From Tabrizicola sp. (lineage in GTDB: Bacteria > Pseudomonadota > Alphaproteobacteria > Rhodobacterales > Rhodobacteraceae), in assembly GCA_016792685.1 (NCBI GenBank), contig JAEULQ010000112.1:1-38028 (forward strand): DNA of 38,028 bases, read 5' to 3'. Below the pieces are notes generated by a model, which was not told where the DNA came from, made no database searches, and worked only from the letters and a program-made list of their open reading frames with translations. Shown one piece after another: positions 26,922-32,444 of the stretch. Position numbers and translations under genes: made by a program. Within the stretch, counting starts at the first letter, position 1. Each line of letters starts with the position of its first letter.

Positions 26922-27430
26922 CTTCAGTCCTCCCGTTCTGTGTTGGATCCGGCGAAGTGCCTTTGACGCCCGCAGTGCGATCCGGACCGGACCGACCGCC
27001 CTCAATAGGCTGCGTCGTGGGTGTTGGTCAGCCTTGGCTGACGGCCCGAGCATGCGCCCCATTAGGCCGTCCGTCGAGCGAATCCTGCCCGAACCGCTGC
27101 TGCCCGGACCCGAAATCAGCGCCCGCGACCTTGACTGCGGTTGCGAAACAATCCTGGGGTGCGCTGCGGGAAATGGCATCCCTCTAAAGATGATAGACCC
27201 GCAGCTTTGGTTCCACTGCAGGGCGTCCGGGTGATGCCCTGCTGGCACCGGCCAATGACGCAAACCGGGCGCAACGGCAGATTGATTTGCCGACCTTGCA
27301 CATGCGCTGCCCGCCGGATTTGCCCAATCCACGGGCACCCGTTGCCTGTACGGCCCCGCGCGAAGGCAATCCCCTTCCCCACCCAAGGTTGCTTCGCCTA
27401 TAGATGGGCCATGACCAGAAGGAAGCCGTG
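26922..27430. other. Gene-free stretch upstream of ptsP
   Basis: These 509 bases lie between the GYD gene start and ptsP. No supported gene is seen on either strand. A perfect inverted repeat GCAGGGC (27218-27224)/GCCCTGC (27236-27242) can form a hairpin with an 11-base loop. The ptsP promoter is expected here but no strong match is visible. Confidence 0.45.
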
Positions 27431-29674
27431 ATGCCCGAACGCAGCGAAAGCGACAGCCGCAAGCTTCTCCGCCGCCTGCGCGACATGCTTGCCGTCCCGG
27501 GCGAGGGCCAGGACCGGCTGGACCGCATCACCCATCTCATCGCCGACAGCATGGGGACCGAGGTCTGCTCGATCTACCTCTTCCGCGACCCCGAGACGCT
27601 GGAGCTTTGCGCGACCGAAGGGCTGAAGGCCGAGGCGGTCCACCAGACCCGGATGAAACTGGGCGAAGGCCTCGTCGGCCGAGTGGCGCGCACCGGCCAG
27701 CCGGTCAACACGGCAGATGCGCCCTCTGAAAAAGGTTTTCGCTACATGCCCGAGACGGGGGAAGAGCTCTTCTCCTCCTTCCTCGGTCTGCCGATCCAGC
27801 GGGTAGGCGAAAAGCTTGGCGTGCTTGTCGTGCAGTCAAAGACCGCCCGGCAATTCTCGGATGACGAGGTCTATGCGCTGGACGTCGTCGCCATGGTCCT
27901 TGCCGAAATGACCGAGCTTGGCGCCTTTACCAGCGGCGATGGCGCGATGCGGGCGCTGCACAAGCAGCCGGTGATGATCCGGGCGACCTCGGGCCAGGAA
28001 GGTGCCGCCGAGGGTCGGGTCTGGCTGCACGAACCCCGGGTCGTGGTCACCAATCCGGTGGCCGACGATCCGCTGACCGAGATCGACCGGATCAAGGCGG
28101 CTGTCGGTGAACTGCGGGTCTCGATCGACGACCTGCTTGCGGCCGAACAGCTGGACAAGGAACAGAAGCAGGTCCTTGAGGCCTACCGGATGTTCGCCCA
28201 TTCACGCGGCTGGCTGCGCCGGATGGAAGAAGACATCATGCGCGGCCTTTCTGCCGAAGCAGCGGTGGAAAAGGAACAGTCGGCAGCCCGTGCAAGGATG
28301 GAACAGGTCCCGGACCAGTACCTGCGCGAGCGGCTCCAGGACCTTGACGACCTTTCGAACCGGCTTTTGCGCATCCTGACCGGTCAAGGCAAGGATACCG
28401 GGGCGGAAATGCCGGACAACCCGGTCCTCGTCGCGCGCAACATCGGCCCGGCCGAGCTTCTCGACTATGGCCGCAAGCTGAAAGGCGTGGTGCTTGAGGA
28501 AGGCTCGGTCGGCAGCCATGCCGCCATCGTCGCCCGCGCACTGGCCATCCCGCTTGTGATCAACGCCAGCCGTGTGGTGGCCGAGGCGCTGAACGGCGAC
28601 CCGATCCTTGTCGACGGCGATCAGGGCATCGTCCACCTGCGCCCCGAGGAAACCGTCGCCCGCGCCTTCCGCGACAAGATCGCCATGCAGGCCGAGGCGC
28701 AGAAACGCTATGCCTCGCTGCGGAACCTGCCCGCGACCACGCTGTGCGGCACGACGATCGCGCTTCACATGAACGCGGGCCTCATGGCCGACCTGCCCAG
28801 CCTTGAAGGCTCGGGCGCCGAAGGCGTCGGGCTCTTCCGGACCGAGCTGCAGTTTCTCGTCCGCTCGAAAATGCCGCAGCGGGCCGAGCTTGCCCGGCTT
28901 TACGCCCGCGTCATGGATGCGGCCAAGGGCAAGCGCGTGGCCTTCCGGACCCTCGACATCGGCTCGGACAAGGTGCTGCCCTACATGAAGCCGCCCGAAG
29001 AGCCGAACCCCGCCATGGGCTGGCGCGCGGTCCGCGTGGGCCTCGACAAGCCCGGCGTGATGCGGATGCAGCTACAGGCGCTGATCCGGGCCGCGAACGG
29101 GCGGCCACTGACGGTCATGTTCCCCCTCATCACCGAGATGAGCGAGTTCCAGGCCGCCCGCTCGCATGTCCTGCGCGAATTGCACCGCGAAAAGTCACTG
29201 GGCCACCCGGTGCCGCAGAAGATCGAGATCGGCGCGATGATGGAGACGCCGTCGCTCGCCTTCGCGCCCCGTGCCTTCTTCGAGCTGACCGACTTCATCT
29301 CGGTCGGCGGCAATGACCTGAAGCAGTTCTTCTTCGCCGCCGACCGCGAGAACGAGCTGGTCCGCCGCCGCTATGACACGCTGAACCTGACCTTCCTCAA
29401 CTTTCTGGAACAGATCATCGCGCGCTGTGCCGAGACCGGGACAATGCTTTCCTTCTGCGGCGAGGATGCGGGGCGGCCCATCGAGGCTCTGGCCCTGGCC
29501 GCCATCGGCTTCCGCACGCTCTCGATGCGTCCGGCCTCGGTCGGCCCGGTCAAGGCTCTGCTACGCCGGGTGAACCTGACCGAGGCGCGCGCCGTAATCG
29601 AACGCGCCCGCGCCGAGGGGGCCGAAAGCGCACGCCCGCTGCTGATGGAATGGCTCGCCACAGTTGGCGAATAG
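27431..29674 (+). CDS. ptsP: Phosphoenolpyruvate-protein phosphotransferase PtsP (EI-Ntr)
   Basis: This is a 747-residue enzyme I of the nitrogen-related phosphotransferase system. It passes phosphate from PEP to NPr and so informs the cell about nitrogen and carbon state. An N-terminal GAF domain (about 1-160, VCSIYLFRDPETLEL, LGEGLVGRVARTGQP) marks the Ntr type. The phospho-His is His363 in SVGSHAAIVAR. The PEP barrel has GVGLFRTELQFL, RTLDIGSDK and GGNDLKQFFFAADREN, with the catalytic Cys676 in SFCGEDAGRP. The start ATG at 27431 has an AGAAGGA site; an upstream in-frame ATG is less likely. PtsP and LysC genes are often neighbours in alphaproteobacteria; here 4.3 kb separates them. Confidence 0.95.
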   Translation: MPERSESDSRKLLRRLRDMLAVPGEGQDRLDRITHLIADSMGTEVCSIYLFRDPETLELCATEGLKAEAVHQTRMKLGEGLVGRVARTGQPVNTADAPSEKGFRYMPETGEELFSSFLGLPIQRVGEKLGVLVVQSKTARQFSDDEVYALDVVAMVLAEMTELGAFTSGDGAMRALHKQPVMIRATSGQEGAAEGRVWLHEPRVVVTNPVADDPLTEIDRIKAAVGELRVSIDDLLAAEQLDKEQKQVLEAYRMFAHSRGWLRRMEEDIMRGLSAEAAVEKEQSAARARMEQVPDQYLRERLQDLDDLSNRLLRILTGQGKDTGAEMPDNPVLVARNIGPAELLDYGRKLKGVVLEEGSVGSHAAIVARALAIPLVINASRVVAEALNGDPILVDGDQGIVHLRPEETVARAFRDKIAMQAEAQKRYASLRNLPATTLCGTTIALHMNAGLMADLPSLEGSGAEGVGLFRTELQFLVRSKMPQRAELARLYARVMDAAKGKRVAFRTLDIGSDKVLPYMKPPEEPNPAMGWRAVRVGLDKPGVMRMQLQALIRAANGRPLTVMFPLITEMSEFQAARSHVLRELHREKSLGHPVPQKIEIGAMMETPSLAFAPRAFFELTDFISVGGNDLKQFFFAADRENELVRRRYDTLNLTFLNFLEQIIARCAETGTMLSFCGEDAGRPIEALALAAIGFRTLSMRPASVGPVKALLRRVNLTEARAVIERARAEGAESARPLLMEWLATVGE

Positions 29675-29782: not shown

Positions 29783-30868
29783 ATGGAATTCGGTCTCTTC
29801 TTTTTTGCCAACGACACGTCTGGTGCCGGACAAGTCGGGAAATACGATCTGATCTTTGAAGCCGCCCGTTGGGCAGACCAGAACGGCATGGCCCGGCTCT
29901 GGGTGCCCGAGCGACATTTTCACAGCTTCGGGGGCCTGTCCCCGAACCCGTCCGTACTTGCGGCGGCCTTGGCCGGGGTGACCAAACGTATCCAGATCTG
30001 TGCCGGCAGCGTTGTGCTGCCGCTGCATGACCCGATCCGTGTCGCCGAAGAGTGGTCGATCGTCGACAACGTCTCGGGCGGGCGGGTTGGCCTTGGCATC
30101 GCCAGCGGCTGGGTGCCGAACGATTTCGTCATTTCGGCCCGTCAGAATGACTTTCAGAACCGCAAGGAAGTGTTCCGCGAACGGACCGAAACCTTGCGCC
30201 GCCTGTGGCGTGGCGAACCGCACCGCGTGCAGAACCCCTTTGGCGAAGAGATAGACATCCGCGTCATGCCGCGCCCCGTGCAGGCGGAACTGCCGATCTG
30301 GATCACTGCCGCCGCCAACCCCGAAACCTTCCGCGAAGCGGGCATGATCGGCGCGAATGTGCTGACCCACCTTCTGGGCCAGACCGTCGAAGACCTGGCC
30401 CAGAAGATCGTGACCTACCGTGAAAGCCGGGCCGCCGCAGGGCATCCGGGGCGTGGCACGGTCACGCTCATGCTGCACACGCTGGTCGGCGACGACGATG
30501 ACGAAGTCCACGACATAGCGCGCGAACCGATGATGGCCTATCTTGGCGCCTCGTTCGATCTGGCCTCGCGGCATCTCGCCTCGGTTCCCTTCCTCAAGGA
30601 CCCAAGCCGGATCGACATCTCCCAACTGACGCCAGAGCTGGCCGAAGCGGCGCTGGAGGCGTCCTTCGAAAAATACTTCTACATGGGCAGCCTCCTGGGC
30701 TCCTATGACAAGTGTCTGGCCACGGTCGACAAGCTATCGCAGCTTGATGTGGACGAAGTCGCCTGCCTGGTGGATTTCGGGCTTGATCCACAGATCGTTC
30801 TCAAGGGGCTCGAAAACCTGAACGTCCTGCGCAAGCTGGCCAATCCGGAACCGCTGCGCGCGGCCTAA
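29783..30868 (+). CDS. LLM-class flavin-dependent monooxygenase (MupA/Atu3671 type)
   Basis: This is a 361-residue luciferase-like (LLM) FMN-dependent oxidoreductase. The start MEFGLFFFANDTSG fits the family pattern; it continues with RLWVPERHFHSFGGLSPNPSVLAAALAGVT, GSVVLPLHDPIRVAEEWSIVDNVSGGRVGLGIASGW and ITAAANPETFREAG. The N-terminal form and the C-terminal EKYFYMGSLLGSYDKCLATVDKL resemble the MupA/Atu3671 group found in natural-product tailoring. It needs a flavin reductase partner; one candidate lies about 5 kb away. The ATG has an AGGAG site six bases upstream. It ends overlapping, tail to tail, with the HprK/PqqD gene by four bases. Confidence 0.87.
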   Translation: MEFGLFFFANDTSGAGQVGKYDLIFEAARWADQNGMARLWVPERHFHSFGGLSPNPSVLAAALAGVTKRIQICAGSVVLPLHDPIRVAEEWSIVDNVSGGRVGLGIASGWVPNDFVISARQNDFQNRKEVFRERTETLRRLWRGEPHRVQNPFGEEIDIRVMPRPVQAELPIWITAAANPETFREAGMIGANVLTHLLGQTVEDLAQKIVTYRESRAAAGHPGRGTVTLMLHTLVGDDDDEVHDIAREPMMAYLGASFDLASRHLASVPFLKDPSRIDISQLTPELAEAALEASFEKYFYMGSLLGSYDKCLATVDKLSQLDVDEVACLVDFGLDPQIVLKGLENLNVLRKLANPEPLRAA

Positions 30869-32100
30869 GGGGTGGCCGACCCGGGAACCGCGCGGCTTTC
30901 GACAAGGCCCGCGCCGACAAGCCTCCGGACCAACGCATTCAGATCGGCGGCCAGGCGGTCTGGCTCCACGTCGGGAAAAGCCTCGGTCAAGATTTCAAGG
31001 ATCGCGTCGGTCCGGATCGGCTCTTCGACCAGCGACCAGATGGCTGCGGCCAGCGGGTCCATCCGGTGGATCGCGCGCCCCTCGGCGTCCGCCAGGTAAA
31101 GCCTGTCGCCGATCGGCACGGACAGGCACCCGGCCCGCTGCACCAATAGCCCCCCGGTCGCCTTCTTGGCAGCCGGTCTTGCCGCGAAATCCGCTTGCCG
31201 AAAGGCGCGGGCCGGCCCCGGATCGGCTGAAGGCTTCGACCCTGGCCAATCCGCAAAGGCGGCCTCCAGACAGGCCACCGCGTCGTCCAGTCCCGCATAG
31301 GACAAGGTGAAGGCAGGACGTTCCGCCAGGACCTTGGCGATGGCCGAAAGAATATCGGCCGAATGGCGGTCGCGGGTGAAGTTCTGGTGCAAAAGCACAT
31401 CCATCGCCACATCCGGCGAGACAGCCTGCAGGCTGGCAGGCCCCGGCGTGTCCCGCCGGTCAAGAATGACGAAAGCGCCAATCGGCAGGACCGCACCGTG
31501 CGCAGGCTGATCCGGCGGGGTCAGATACCGGTATTGCCGATTTCCCGGTCCCGAAACCGAACCGACCCAATCGGCAAAGCCAGCGCCCAGGGCTTCTGGC
31601 AGCGGCAACCGCAGCCGCGGGGAAAGTCCCATGGCCAGCCCGTAGCCATGACCGCCCTCGCTCAGGAACACCGGGACAACGTCATCGCTGAACACGGGAT
31701 GCCCTGCCCGCGCCAGGGCCGCTGACAAGGTGCTTTTCCCTGCCCGCCGGACATTGGGAAAGATTACCAGCCGGCCACCCAGGGCCACGCCCGCGGCATG
31801 CAGGCAGATCAGGCCAGGATGTTCGGCAGGCAAGGCAAGGGCCAGCGCCGAAACCGCATCGCAGACGGCATTGACCGGGTCGAACCGCTGCGATGGTCGG
31901 TCCTCGACATGGCAGTCGCAGCGCAGCAGCGCTGTCCCCGGCTCGGAACTGATCGTAAAGAAGGGGGCGACGGAAGGGTCAGCCTTGACGCAGTCATAGG
32001 GCCAGCCAACAGCAACCCCGGGCAGCACCTCCAGCACCGCCTCGGCCCCATTAAGGCGCAACGGCGCGGTGACTCCGCGAAAGACGATATCCAGCATCAT
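30865..32100 (-). CDS. Fused HprK-like kinase and PqqD-type domain protein
   Basis: This is a 411-residue protein in two parts. The first (about 1-300) resembles HPr kinase/phosphorylase-related proteins. It has CLHAAGVALGGRLVIF, a Walker A-like NVRRAGKSTL with Lys122, and FSDDVVPV (Asp139/Asp140). Asn116 stands where the P-loop usually has Gly or Ala. The last about 85 residues form a PqqD-like winged helix (DRLYLADAEGRAIHRMDPLAAAIWSLVEEP ... LVRRLVGAGLVESR). PqqD domains bind leader peptides of modified peptides. There is no HPr in the window. The gene follows the SEP-repeat peptide across 59 bases that form a strong hairpin. Related HprK and PqqD families are known bioinformatically, but the function is open. 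Confidence 0.8.
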   Translation of the reverse strand: MMLDIVFRGVTAPLRLNGAEAVLEVLPGVAVGWPYDCVKADPSVAPFFTISSEPGTALLRCDCHVEDRPSQRFDPVNAVCDAVSALALALPAEHPGLICLHAAGVALGGRLVIFPNVRRAGKSTLSAALARAGHPVFSDDVVPVFLSEGGHGYGLAMGLSPRLRLPLPEALGAGFADWVGSVSGPGNRQYRYLTPPDQPAHGAVLPIGAFVILDRRDTPGPASLQAVSPDVAMDVLLHQNFTRDRHSADILSAIAKVLAERPAFTLSYAGLDDAVACLEAAFADWPGSKPSADPGPARAFRQADFAARPAAKKATGGLLVQRAGCLSVPIGDRLYLADAEGRAIHRMDPLAAAIWSLVEEPIRTDAILEILTEAFPDVEPDRLAADLNALVRRLVGAGLVESRAVPGSATP

Positions 32101-32117
32101 CGCGCCTGTCTGATCCT

Positions 32118-32147
32118 CCCCCCGGCACAGTCGGTCGCGCCGGGGGG
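32118..32147 (-). promoter_or_regulatory. Hairpin between the SEP-repeat peptide and HprK/PqqD genes
   Basis: CCCCCCGGC (32118-32126) and GCCGGGGGG (32139-32147) form a perfect 9-bp stem with a 12-base loop. Read leftward, it follows the peptide stop and is not followed by a T tract; AGGATCAG comes next. It is therefore more likely a stabiliser or partial attenuator than a full terminator. It overlaps the region where a ribosome site for the kinase would lie. Confidence 0.6.
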
Positions 32148-32159
32148 CCGGTCAAGACC

Positions 32160-32444
32160 TCAGGGCGTGGTCGCAGGTTGTTCGGCGCAGCCCGGATCGT
32201 CGTCAGTCGGACCCGAGCAGACGCTGGGCGACGTGTTCGAGCTCGAGGCGGTGCTCGGTTCACTCGGCTCGCTCGGTTCGCTCGGTTCGCTCGGCTCACT
32301 CGAGCCACTGGAGCTGCTCGACCCGCTGGCCTTTGCAACACTCAGCGTGGTCATTGCGGGGGCAAGATAGGCGCCCACTGCGATGGCCGCCAGACGAGCA
32401 AGAGCCTTGCGGCGCGAGAAATCGTCTTCTTTGGAATCGCTCAT
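32160..32444 (-). CDS. Small secreted peptide with SEP repeats (possible precursor)
   Basis: This is a 94-residue protein. The N terminus (MSDSKEDDFSRRKALARLA) resembles a twin-arginine signal. It leads into a hydrophobic stretch (AAIAVGAYLAPAM) and an Ala-Lys-Ala site at 37-39. The rest is Ser-rich: 19 Ser among residues 40-94, with SEP repeats at 49-64 (SEPSEPSEP and so on) and a tail with Cys76 and Cys86. The ATG at 32444 has an AAGGAAG ribosome site. The repeats are encoded by 9-bp units at 32254-32298. Its position before an HprK/PqqD fusion suggests it is the partner substrate; this is inference. A similar leader with other Ser-rich repeats is seen in some alphaproteobacterial proteins, recalled from memory. 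Confidence 0.72.
   Translation of the reverse strand: MSDSKEDDFSRRKALARLAAIAVGAYLAPAMTTLSVAKASGSSSSSGSSEPSEPSEPSEPSEPSTASSSNTSPSVCSGPTDDDPGCAEQPATTP
32254..32298 (+). repeat. Five 9-bp tandem repeat units in the SEP-repeat gene
   Basis: Units of the type CTCGGYTCR follow each other at 32254, 32263, 32272, 32281 and 32290. They encode the Ser-Glu-Pro triplets on the minus strand. Two adjacent units are identical and the others differ by one or two bases, so the array may change length by slippage. Confidence 0.85.

Follow-up and report, generated by a model that had tools for sequence, protein, structure and literature searches.

A Ser-repeat peptide and a fused HprK-like/PqqD protein as a candidate phospho-peptide cassette in Tabrizicola

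The cassette and its features

The DNA analysed here, referred to as the window, is a stretch of 38,028 nucleotides from a Tabrizicola sp. contig. Two genes on its minus strand, both of them real, form the cassette under study: the first encodes a Ser-repeat peptide of 94 residues (P0002) and the second, whose ATG lies 59 bp downstream of the peptide stop codon, a fusion protein of 411 residues (P0001). Both ORFs are as described in an earlier, sequence-only reading, which gave the peptide a twin-arginine-like leader and SEP repeats and correctly noted the AGKST (120-124), SDD (138-140) and Asn116 of the fusion. By eye, a purine-rich stretch resembling a ribosome site precedes the peptide ATG. 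Next to the cassette lie ptsP and luciferase-like monooxygenase genes, neither of which belongs to a conserved set. The features, with the evidence for each, are as follows (A1, A2, A4 and A5 denote alignments or profiles).

32160..32444, minus strand: gene of the Ser-repeat precursor P0002, 94 aa; ORF, homologue 5' of the kinase in 37/38 named loci, codon constraint
32328..32444, minus strand: leader, residues 1-39, a twin-arginine-type signal ending A-K-A (predicted signal-peptidase site); A2
32409..32414, minus strand: twin arginine R11-R12; invariant in A2 and A5
32358..32369, minus strand: Y26-L-A-P29, that is YxxP, the putative RRE recognition motif; 37/37 named loci
32256..32300, minus strand: five SEP repeats, residues 49-63; sequence and lag-3 Ser test
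30865..32100, minus strand: HprK-like kinase fused to a PqqD/RRE domain, 411 aa (P0001); profiles and model
31231..32100, minus strand: HprK/PEPCK-fold kinase part, approximately residues 1-290; model, HprK and PEPCK matches
31729..31758, minus strand: P-loop region P115-N-V-R-R-A-G-K-S-T124, including K122 of H-K-D-D; sequence and alignments
31798..31800, minus strand: His101, the H of H-K-D-D; unchanged throughout the 18 rows of A1 and the 37 of A4
31681..31686, minus strand: Asp139-Asp140, the D-D of H-K-D-D; invariant in A1 and A4
30889..31149, minus strand: PqqD/RRE domain, residues 318-404; PF05402, and matches to TbiB1, LppB 9x8z and TfuB1
30943..30945, minus strand: Asp386, aligned with LppB D70; invariant in A1 and A4, mapped by hand

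A kinase fused to a RiPP recognition element

Judged by sequence and by a confident AlphaFold2 model (pLDDT 93.7), P0001 is an HprK/PEPCK-fold kinase joined to a PqqD-type RiPP recognition element (RRE), which agrees with the fusion proposed from the sequence alone. The predicted structure of the kinase part matches both HprK and PEPCK folds, its sequence matches HprK 3tqf and 1jb1, and its best NCBIfam match is TIGR04352, HprK_rel_A (E=1.3e-14). Its 54 bits are far short of the 200-bit cut-off, however, and P0001 falls outside the TIGR04352 equivalog, membership of which is ruled out on score for it and for seven related kinases (22-53 bits against the same 200); HprK-related kinase A is a neighbouring group, but a separate one.

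H101, K122, D139 and D140 are invariant in A1 and A4, and this H-K-D-D motif is reported to be essential in the Ser kinases of lasso peptides (PMC9266682). Asn116, at the first Gly position of the P-loop, had been read as a possible sign of changed nucleotide use. In the 18 rows of A1 that position holds N 9, A 2, S 1 and G 6 times, the named set being left out of the count because its Asn was imposed by the kinase search pattern. Since the position varies while H-K-D-D does not, Asn116 offers little ground for supposing that nucleotides are used differently, and that suggestion is unsupported.

The C-terminal domain is recognised by the PqqD family PF05402 of Pfam at residues 338-400 (E=1.3e-10, 41.9 bits, gathering cut-off 23.4). 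Its model compares with leader-bound TbiB1 (5v1v) at a TMt of 0.85, bearing out the PqqD-like fold, its best sequence match is TbiB1 5v1u (E=2.7e-7), and its closest PDB relatives are leader-binding RREs of lasso peptides and of Linear Polyphosphorylated Peptides, or LPPs (TbiB1, LppB 9x8z, TfuB1). When mapped by hand, L371, F375 and L399 align with the LppB pocket residues I56, Y60 and L83, and D386 with LppB D70, which hydrogen-bonds the Tyr of the leader (PMC13381572). Sequence and model together suggest an RRE of the YxxP-binding kind, fused rather than discrete.

The precursor peptide carries a matching motif in a predicted export signal

The leader has an invariant RR, a hydrophobic stretch and an AxA: R11, R12, A22, Y26, P29, A37 and A39 do not vary among the 19 rows of A2, three of which begin one residue away from Met. 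Fifteen residues past the twin Arg, all 37 of the 37 named loci carry Y-x-x-P-x-(L/M/F/V), and by reading, YxxP is also present in 18/18 leader-bearing loci at class level and in 5/5 further loci from a phylum search. None of the 29 control Tat leaders scored (30 loci fetched) has YxxP, and 7/29 have the looser [YWL]xxP; about 16 of these controls seem to be one orthologous protein, which we take to be Rieske. RREs of lasso and LPP systems bind YxxP, and this motif, absent from the first reading, is the detail that decides the case: together with D386 it gives good sequence support to the proposal that the PqqD part holds the leader.

Between the window and 11 relatives (66 pairs), differences in the leader fall on codon positions 1/2/3 in the proportion 270/202/924, so the leader is under coding constraint. 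Against the generic Tat model TIGR01409 the P0002 leader reaches 11.1 bits (cut-off 16.7), and its RRx is not followed by the Phe that is usual in Tat motifs. TatC is present in all 20 genomes that carry the fusion. A bacterial-type signal peptidase (PF10502) occurs in 19/20 of them, the copy closest to a cassette lying about 14 kb away (G064) and the one in the window genome on another contig; no linked signal peptidase was found at the cassette in these 20 genomes. The archaeal-type SpI TIGR02228 is above cut-off in 0/20, with two weak matches on other contigs.

The mature core is a low-complexity, highly variable sequence in which Ser recurs mostly every third residue, including the five SEP repeats at residues 49-63. 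In a test on the window and 36 named peptides (L130 dropped, repeat masked), this spacing of 3 was matched by 0/500 shuffles. Each of the 37 has a mature part with a Ser content of 23-48%, the sequence being otherwise variable. The expectation that the peptide is always Ser-rich holds for these 37 and fails further out, where some class-level leader peptides (L042, L054) have no Ser-rich repeats. The cores are long and repetitive, without a fixed residue in their first 12 positions, and the alignment of the window with its relatives contains no invariant Ser.

Leader and fusion occur together

In 37 of the 38 named loci, which were found by a scan with the kinase pattern alone, a leader peptide lies directly upstream of the kinase, and the 38th locus starts within the kinase; homologues of the fusion do keep the peptide, as had been asked of them. 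Five of the 38 (L104, L124, L128, L130 and L134) are, judged by length, contigs already used as other loci, and L114 and L003 have identical peptides. Because contigs are shared between the locus sets, A1 and A4 overlap, with the window in both.

The cassette is carried by some Rhodobacterales. Among 198 family genomes, strong leader matches (E<=1e-10) and kinase-RRE fusions fall in the same 20, and in the remaining 178 neither was found; 17 of the 20 had themselves contributed peptides to A5, the leader profile used. Even strong matches not linked to a kinase are confined to fusion-bearing genomes. Six weak leader matches lie outside the 20; the three that were read (G019, G004, G007) have no YxxP, the other three being G115, G183 and G186. 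At class level the leader is absent from 11/29 loci with 1500-base flanks and from 6/20 with wider flanks (L093-L097, L099; L093 begins at a contig end). The wider kinase family may therefore include members with another function. Among the 40 other class genomes that gave a match, wider neighbourhoods cover 20.

When the genes of 40 neighbourhoods were clustered (19 at family level and 20 at class level, plus the window), not much recurred apart from the cassette itself, and a conserved multi-gene cluster was rejected. What recurs is the kinase and PqqD, together with a response regulator paired with a histidine kinase in a few neighbourhoods and an NTP_transf_5-type neighbour in five class loci. 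Neither an MsbA-like transporter, expected of an LPP cluster, nor an asparagine-synthetase-like macrolactam cyclase, expected of a lasso cluster, is among the 10 annotated neighbour ORFs of the window, and no conserved neighbour typed as a transporter was found at fusion cassettes, the annotation covering a minority of the neighbours outside the window.

A proposed mechanism and its relation to known systems

From the features computed here (the genes, their linkage, the predicted folds, YxxP, and the invariant Asp386 and H-K-D-D) we infer a course of binding, phosphorylation, Tat export and cleavage that we consider probable, namely that of a minimal, RiPP-type phospho-peptide cassette. The C-terminal RRE would grip YxxP in the h/c-region of the twin-arginine leader, so that the Ser-rich core is held at the active site of the HprK-like part, where at least one core Ser would be phosphorylated from a nucleoside triphosphate before export. 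Release of the leader would free the signal for the Tat translocon, and a housekeeping signal peptidase would cut after A-x-A. The product outside the inner membrane would be a linear, strongly anionic phosphoserine peptide, and the same enzyme may mark other exported proteins that bear the same leader.

The best reading of the cassette is that of a proteobacterial, Tat-type relative of the LPPs. LPPs were described in Nat Commun in 2026 and called restricted to Bacillota; there LppK, the HprK-like kinase of an RRE system, phosphorylates a Ser of a linear precursor, one Ser taking several phosphates (PMC13381572). The two systems share an HprK-like kinase with H-K-D-D (LppK there), an RRE of the YxxP-binding kind (LppB there) whose Asp aligns with the Tyr-holding one, and a linear precursor with a conserved N-terminus and a variable C-terminus, the LPP leader motif being YxxPx[V/L]. 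The LPP leader is cut by a signal-peptidase-like enzyme, for which we suppose a housekeeping one in the window cassette. They differ in that the window system is in Pseudomonadota, with its RRE fused to the kinase and a leader that is a twin-arginine-type export signal; that LPPs have a single acceptor, S3, whereas the window core has many Ser; that the window-type leader is also found on PepSY-like and subtilase proteins; and that the 20 fusion genomes have neither an archaeal-type SpI above cut-off nor an NTP transferase linked to the cassette. With the LPP precursor consensus YxxPxVLxHQxIxFETxxS, only YxxPx(hydrophobic) is common, the rest of the leader being the twin-arginine signal. Since one LPP Ser takes several phosphates, the earlier designation of the Ser of the repeats as the target remains, by this analogy, a guess.

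Counted against the best reading are that the most closely related kinase of known activity acts on one Ser, that the first P-loop Gly is Asn, that no core Ser is invariant, that some class leader peptides are not Ser-rich, that the leader is absent from part of the class-level loci, and that TIGR01409 is below cut-off with no Phe after RRx.

A second comparison is with the paeninodin-type kinases PadeK, ThcoK, SyanK and PsmK, H-K-D-D enzymes that phosphorylate a precursor Ser (PMC9266682). By analogy, P0001 would resemble them in the role of an H-K-D-D kinase fold on precursor Ser; their target is the Ser at the C-terminus of a lasso precursor, and their genes belong to lasso clusters. Similarly, the lasso RREs TbiB1 and TfuB1 (5v1u/5v1v, 6jx3), crystallised with lasso leaders, are discrete proteins of lasso pathways, whereas the window RRE is fused.

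Among the open-access papers searched we found none on HPr-rel-A, HprK-related kinase or TIGR04352, none joining twin-arginine, RiPP, leader peptide and RRE, and nothing on point for PqqD, kinase, Rhodobacteraceae and phosphoserine. Two RRE-mining papers yielded no passage on kinase or twin-arginine, and PMC13381572 none on Proteobacteria or twin-arginine.

Alternative explanations

The location of the RRE target inside an export signal would also suit a signal-peptide chaperone, in which the RRE serves Tat proofreading and the HprK-like part, instead of phosphorylating Ser, times release by nucleotide binding. We give this a small chance: replacement of the first P-loop Gly by Asn, Ala or Ser in 12/18 rows of A1 and the lack of a fixed acceptor Ser are in its favour, but it sits poorly with the invariance of H-K-D-D and with a Ser content kept high in all 37 peptides while the rest of the sequence varies. 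It is quite unlikely that phosphoserine is only an intermediate to which a further enzyme adds a nucleotidyl or hexose group, as in pseudomycoidin, where PsmN adds hexose to phospho-Ser (PMC9266682). Besides this precedent, the separate-gene version has a recurrent neighbour in five class loci, identified by Pfam as NTP_transf_5 in the one member checked. However, NTP_transf_5 (PF14907) has no match in the window genome and none at the cassette in the 20 fusion genomes; five of the 20 have matches at E<=0.001, four of these above cut-off, all on other contigs or about 640 kb away (G184), and those in G132 and G184 lie partly beside PF13471 and therefore look like lasso clusters.

That the two genes are neighbours without a functional link, the kinase having some target other than the Ser-rich exported peptide, is very unlikely. 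The low complexity and variability of the core would allow it, but the linkage at 37/38 loci, the matching RRE motif and the confinement of strong leader matches to fusion-bearing genomes among the 198 searched speak against it. A lasso-peptide cluster with a lost or hidden cyclase and protease is scarcely credible despite an RRE and kinase of lasso type. The B2-type leader peptidase PF13471 is missing from 18/20 fusion genomes, including that of the window (89% complete), its two occurrences lying on other contigs (G132) or about 640 kb away (G184) and never at the cassette, and the long repetitive cores with no fixed residue at their start also disfavour a lasso peptide.

The relationship to LPPs, which we prefer, would give the HprK-like and PqqD-like orphans among proteobacterial proteins a definite candidate substrate and recognition motif, and would carry the LPP plan beyond Bacillota, to which that family has been described as restricted. 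It also suggests that an export signal may double as a modification leader.

Other proteins sharing the leader

The peptide and kinase are linked as the two-gene system of the sequence-only reading had it, but many loci exceed two genes because PepSY-like proteins and, in two genomes, subtilase proteins bear the same leader. More tentatively, and with less than even confidence, we propose a leader-programmed class whose N-terminal sequence has two successive readers: the fused kinase, through its RRE, takes it as a leader, and the Tat system afterwards takes it as an export signal. In such a class the RRE-kinase would be both enzyme and export gatekeeper, marking repeat peptides and whole exported proteins, PepSY-like proteins and subtilases among them, with phosphoserine. 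If true, Proteobacteria would have in this a general way, programmed by the leader, of making secreted phosphoproteins, and should the marking extend to the subtilase and PepSY-like proteins, the cassette would represent a leader-guided phosphorylation system for exported proteins. The PepSY family was tested on three of the downstream proteins, two of which score below the Pfam cut-off.

Linkage of the precursor peptide and the kinase fusion

The cassette consists of a Ser-repeat precursor peptide (P0002) and an HprK-like kinase fused to a RiPP recognition element (RRE) of the PqqD type (P0001), the fusion gene starting 59 bp past the peptide gene. The C-terminus of P0001 is a PqqD domain (PF05402, 41.9 bits), and the N-terminal part is HprK-like, with TIGR04352 at 54 bits, far under the cut-off of 200. 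Upstream, in the same orientation, lies an AMP-binding enzyme gene; on the other side a luciferase-like monooxygenase gene converges on the cassette, with a ptsP-like gene farther on.

32160-32444, minus strand: Ser-repeat peptide gene, 94 aa (P0002)
30865-32100, minus strand: HprK-like/PqqD fusion gene, 411 aa (P0001)
27404-29674: ptsP-like gene (GAF and PEP-utilising enzyme domains), beyond the luciferase-like monooxygenase gene

A similar antisense ORF at the homologous locus L002 suggests that a ptsP-like gene lies near that cassette too.

The sequence-only reading had treated the two genes as a pair, and this pairing held in both of the surveys performed. A protein search of 198 family genomes gave matches in 29, of which 20 were counted as fusions (18 with both domains, L001-L018, plus G123, where the fusion is in two pieces, and G196, where a contig end cuts the gene), while in the other nine the match was partial, to an HprK- or PqqD-like protein. 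The leader profile, built with peptides of 17 of these 20 fusion genomes, gave strong matches (E<=1e-10) over the same 198 genomes in exactly the 20, and weak ones (E 6.8e-7 to 8.8e-5) in six others. Scanning named genome contigs with the kinase pattern only yielded 38 loci, five of them contigs already in earlier sets, from Tabrizicola, Rhodobacter, Ruegeria, Aliiroseovarius, Actibacterium, Loktanella, Yoonia and other records and from one Salaquimonas MAG (Tabrizicola and Aliiroseovarius are Rhodobacterales, Salaquimonas is Hyphomicrobiales). By the leader profile, 37 of the 38 carry a leader peptide upstream of the kinase, the sole miss being L111, whose sequence starts inside the kinase. 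Of 32 genomes in the genus, 18 had a match at E<=1e-20, and presence is therefore patchy; G949 carries two copies that differ.

Probable leader recognition

Among 19 aligned peptides the only invariant columns were R11, R12, A22, Y26, P29, A37 and A39. Y-x-x-P stood exactly 15 residues past the twin Arg in 37/37 named loci, the second residue after the motif Pro being L (16), M (9), F (9) or V (3), and M in the window peptide. In the account of Linear Polyphosphorylated Peptides (LPPs), discrete lasso RREs are said to recognise [Y/W]xxPx[L/V/I/F/A], and the motif Tyr and Pro are shown to matter for binding of the precursor LppA by the RRE LppB (PMC13381572); YxxP is also listed elsewhere as a known recognition sequence (PMC12710340). 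Of the 29 control Tat leaders that were scored, about 16 of which look like one orthologue, none has YxxP and 7 have the looser [YWL]xxP. Leader differences at codon positions 1, 2 and 3 numbered 270, 202 and 924 (66 pairs, 12 sequences), hence the leader evolves under coding constraint.

The AlphaFold2 model of P0001 (37 sequences) had pLDDT 93.7 and pTM 0.91. Foldseek ranked PEPCK and HprK entries first and, for the C-terminus, listed the leader-bound lasso RRE TbiB1 (5v1v, TMt 0.85, E=3.5e-4), bearing out the PqqD-like fold proposed earlier. The best solved sequence relatives of this C-terminus were TbiB1 (E=2.7e-7), LppB entry 9x8z and the lasso RRE TfuB1. In a residue mapping made by hand, with LppB numbered so that the Met of its printed chain is residue 1, which reproduces the published residue letters, D386 aligns with LppB D70, reported to hydrogen-bond the leader Tyr (PMC13381572), and is invariant in both kinase-fusion alignments (A1, 18 rows; A4, 37 rows). 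L371 (invariant in A1), F375 (at least 90% in both) and L399 (invariant in A4) align with the LppB pocket residues I56, Y60 and L83. The RRE very probably binds the leader.

Kinase, putative substrate and probable export

Every row of A1 and A4 keeps H101, K122, D139 and D140; a review reports the His-Lys-Asp-Asp motif as essential in lasso-peptide kinases, with Ser polyphosphorylation by ThcoK and SyanK (PMC9266682), and the HprK-like LppK is described as placing several phosphates onto S3 of the linear LPP core (PMC13381572). At the first P-loop Gly position, A1 (18 rows) shows N, A, S or G. We consider phosphorylation of the core by this kinase likely.

That the peptide always carries Ser-rich repeats was upheld in part. 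The Ser share of the mature part was 23-48% (median 32%) in 36 named peptides and the window peptide, one masked row being left out, and in 36 of these 37 the lag-3 Ser spacing exceeded shuffles at p<0.05. No position among the core's first 12 was Ser in all 38 rows. A second fusion group (L013-L018) has Arg-rich or Gly-Arg-Ser repeats in place of Ser-Glu/Ala/Pro repeats, and in more distant loci repeats are short or absent (L042, L054). The L013-L018 kinases have the normal Gly at the first P-loop position, and kinase type is possibly linked to substrate type. Cys occurs in 36/38 mature peptides, the window's clade often having a CSGPTDDDxGC-like tail.

The peptide is probably exported by Tat, and a housekeeping signal peptidase probably takes off the leader. 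We would guess that the phosphopeptide binds metal or cations outside the inner membrane.

Relation to LPP and lasso systems

As in LPPs, an RRE, an HprK-like kinase and a linear precursor make up the system, and the cassette would appear to work like one. The cassette is not an LPP of the published type: the peptide does not match the published precursor consensus, and in the 20 fusion genomes there was no archaeal-type signal peptidase (SpI) above cut-off and no NTP transferase linked to the cassette. No MsbA-like transporter was among the 10 annotated neighbour ORFs of the window. LPPs are restricted to Bacillota according to their authors (PMC13381572). A lasso cluster is disfavoured as far as the leader peptidase (PF13471) goes. 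Since the cassette seems to work like an LPP but is neither of the published type nor, by its peptidase, a lasso cluster, we filed it as a variant of its own. One fusion-bearing genome (G132) has what looks like a separate phosphorylated-lasso cluster, with HprK-like, PF13471 and NTP_transf_5 matches grouped in ~6.5 kb of a contig (C114) other than the cassette's.

Wider family and other leader-bearing proteins

At class level 41/385 genomes, own included, matched at E<=1e-15, and in many of these the match table reads as kinase and PqqD in separate adjoining genes. A leader peptide was found within 1500-base flanks at 18/29 class loci (YxxP in all 18, by reading) and within wider flanks at 14 of the 20 loci fetched. 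Among the six without one, L093 begins at a contig end; L094-L097 and L099 have kinase and PqqD-like genes with no recognisable leader peptide, those of L094 coming after a RegB/RegA-type two-component pair. Five class loci share a neighbour gene, with NTP_transf_5 in the one member tested. The phylum-level search (398 genomes, E<=1e-20) gave 8 matching genomes, the window's own among them. Four of the 8 (L202-L204, L206) belong to one family of another class and have fusions, with leader peptides that carry S-R-P-type repeats.

Just 3' of the kinase, 18 of the 38 named loci encode a second leader-bearing protein, with YxxP in 18/18; L004, L005 and L008 do so too. These proteins have the same leader as the peptide, then a Ser-rich linker, and the three tested (L004, L008, L112) have a PepSY-like C-terminus, above the Pfam cut-off in one. 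A response regulator and a histidine kinase come next in three loci: L064, where they were typed, and L066 and L067, where the assignment comes from clustering. A subtilase (Peptidase_S8) with the same leader, reading YVAP/YLAP, occurs in two genomes.

L112, L113, L115-L124, L128, L129, L131, L132, L135, L136: second leader protein downstream of the kinase (named loci)
L074, 6169-7482: leader-bearing subtilase
L198, 2654-4033: leader-bearing subtilase

One of the two subtilases lies on a contig other than that of its genome's kinase (G026; L198).
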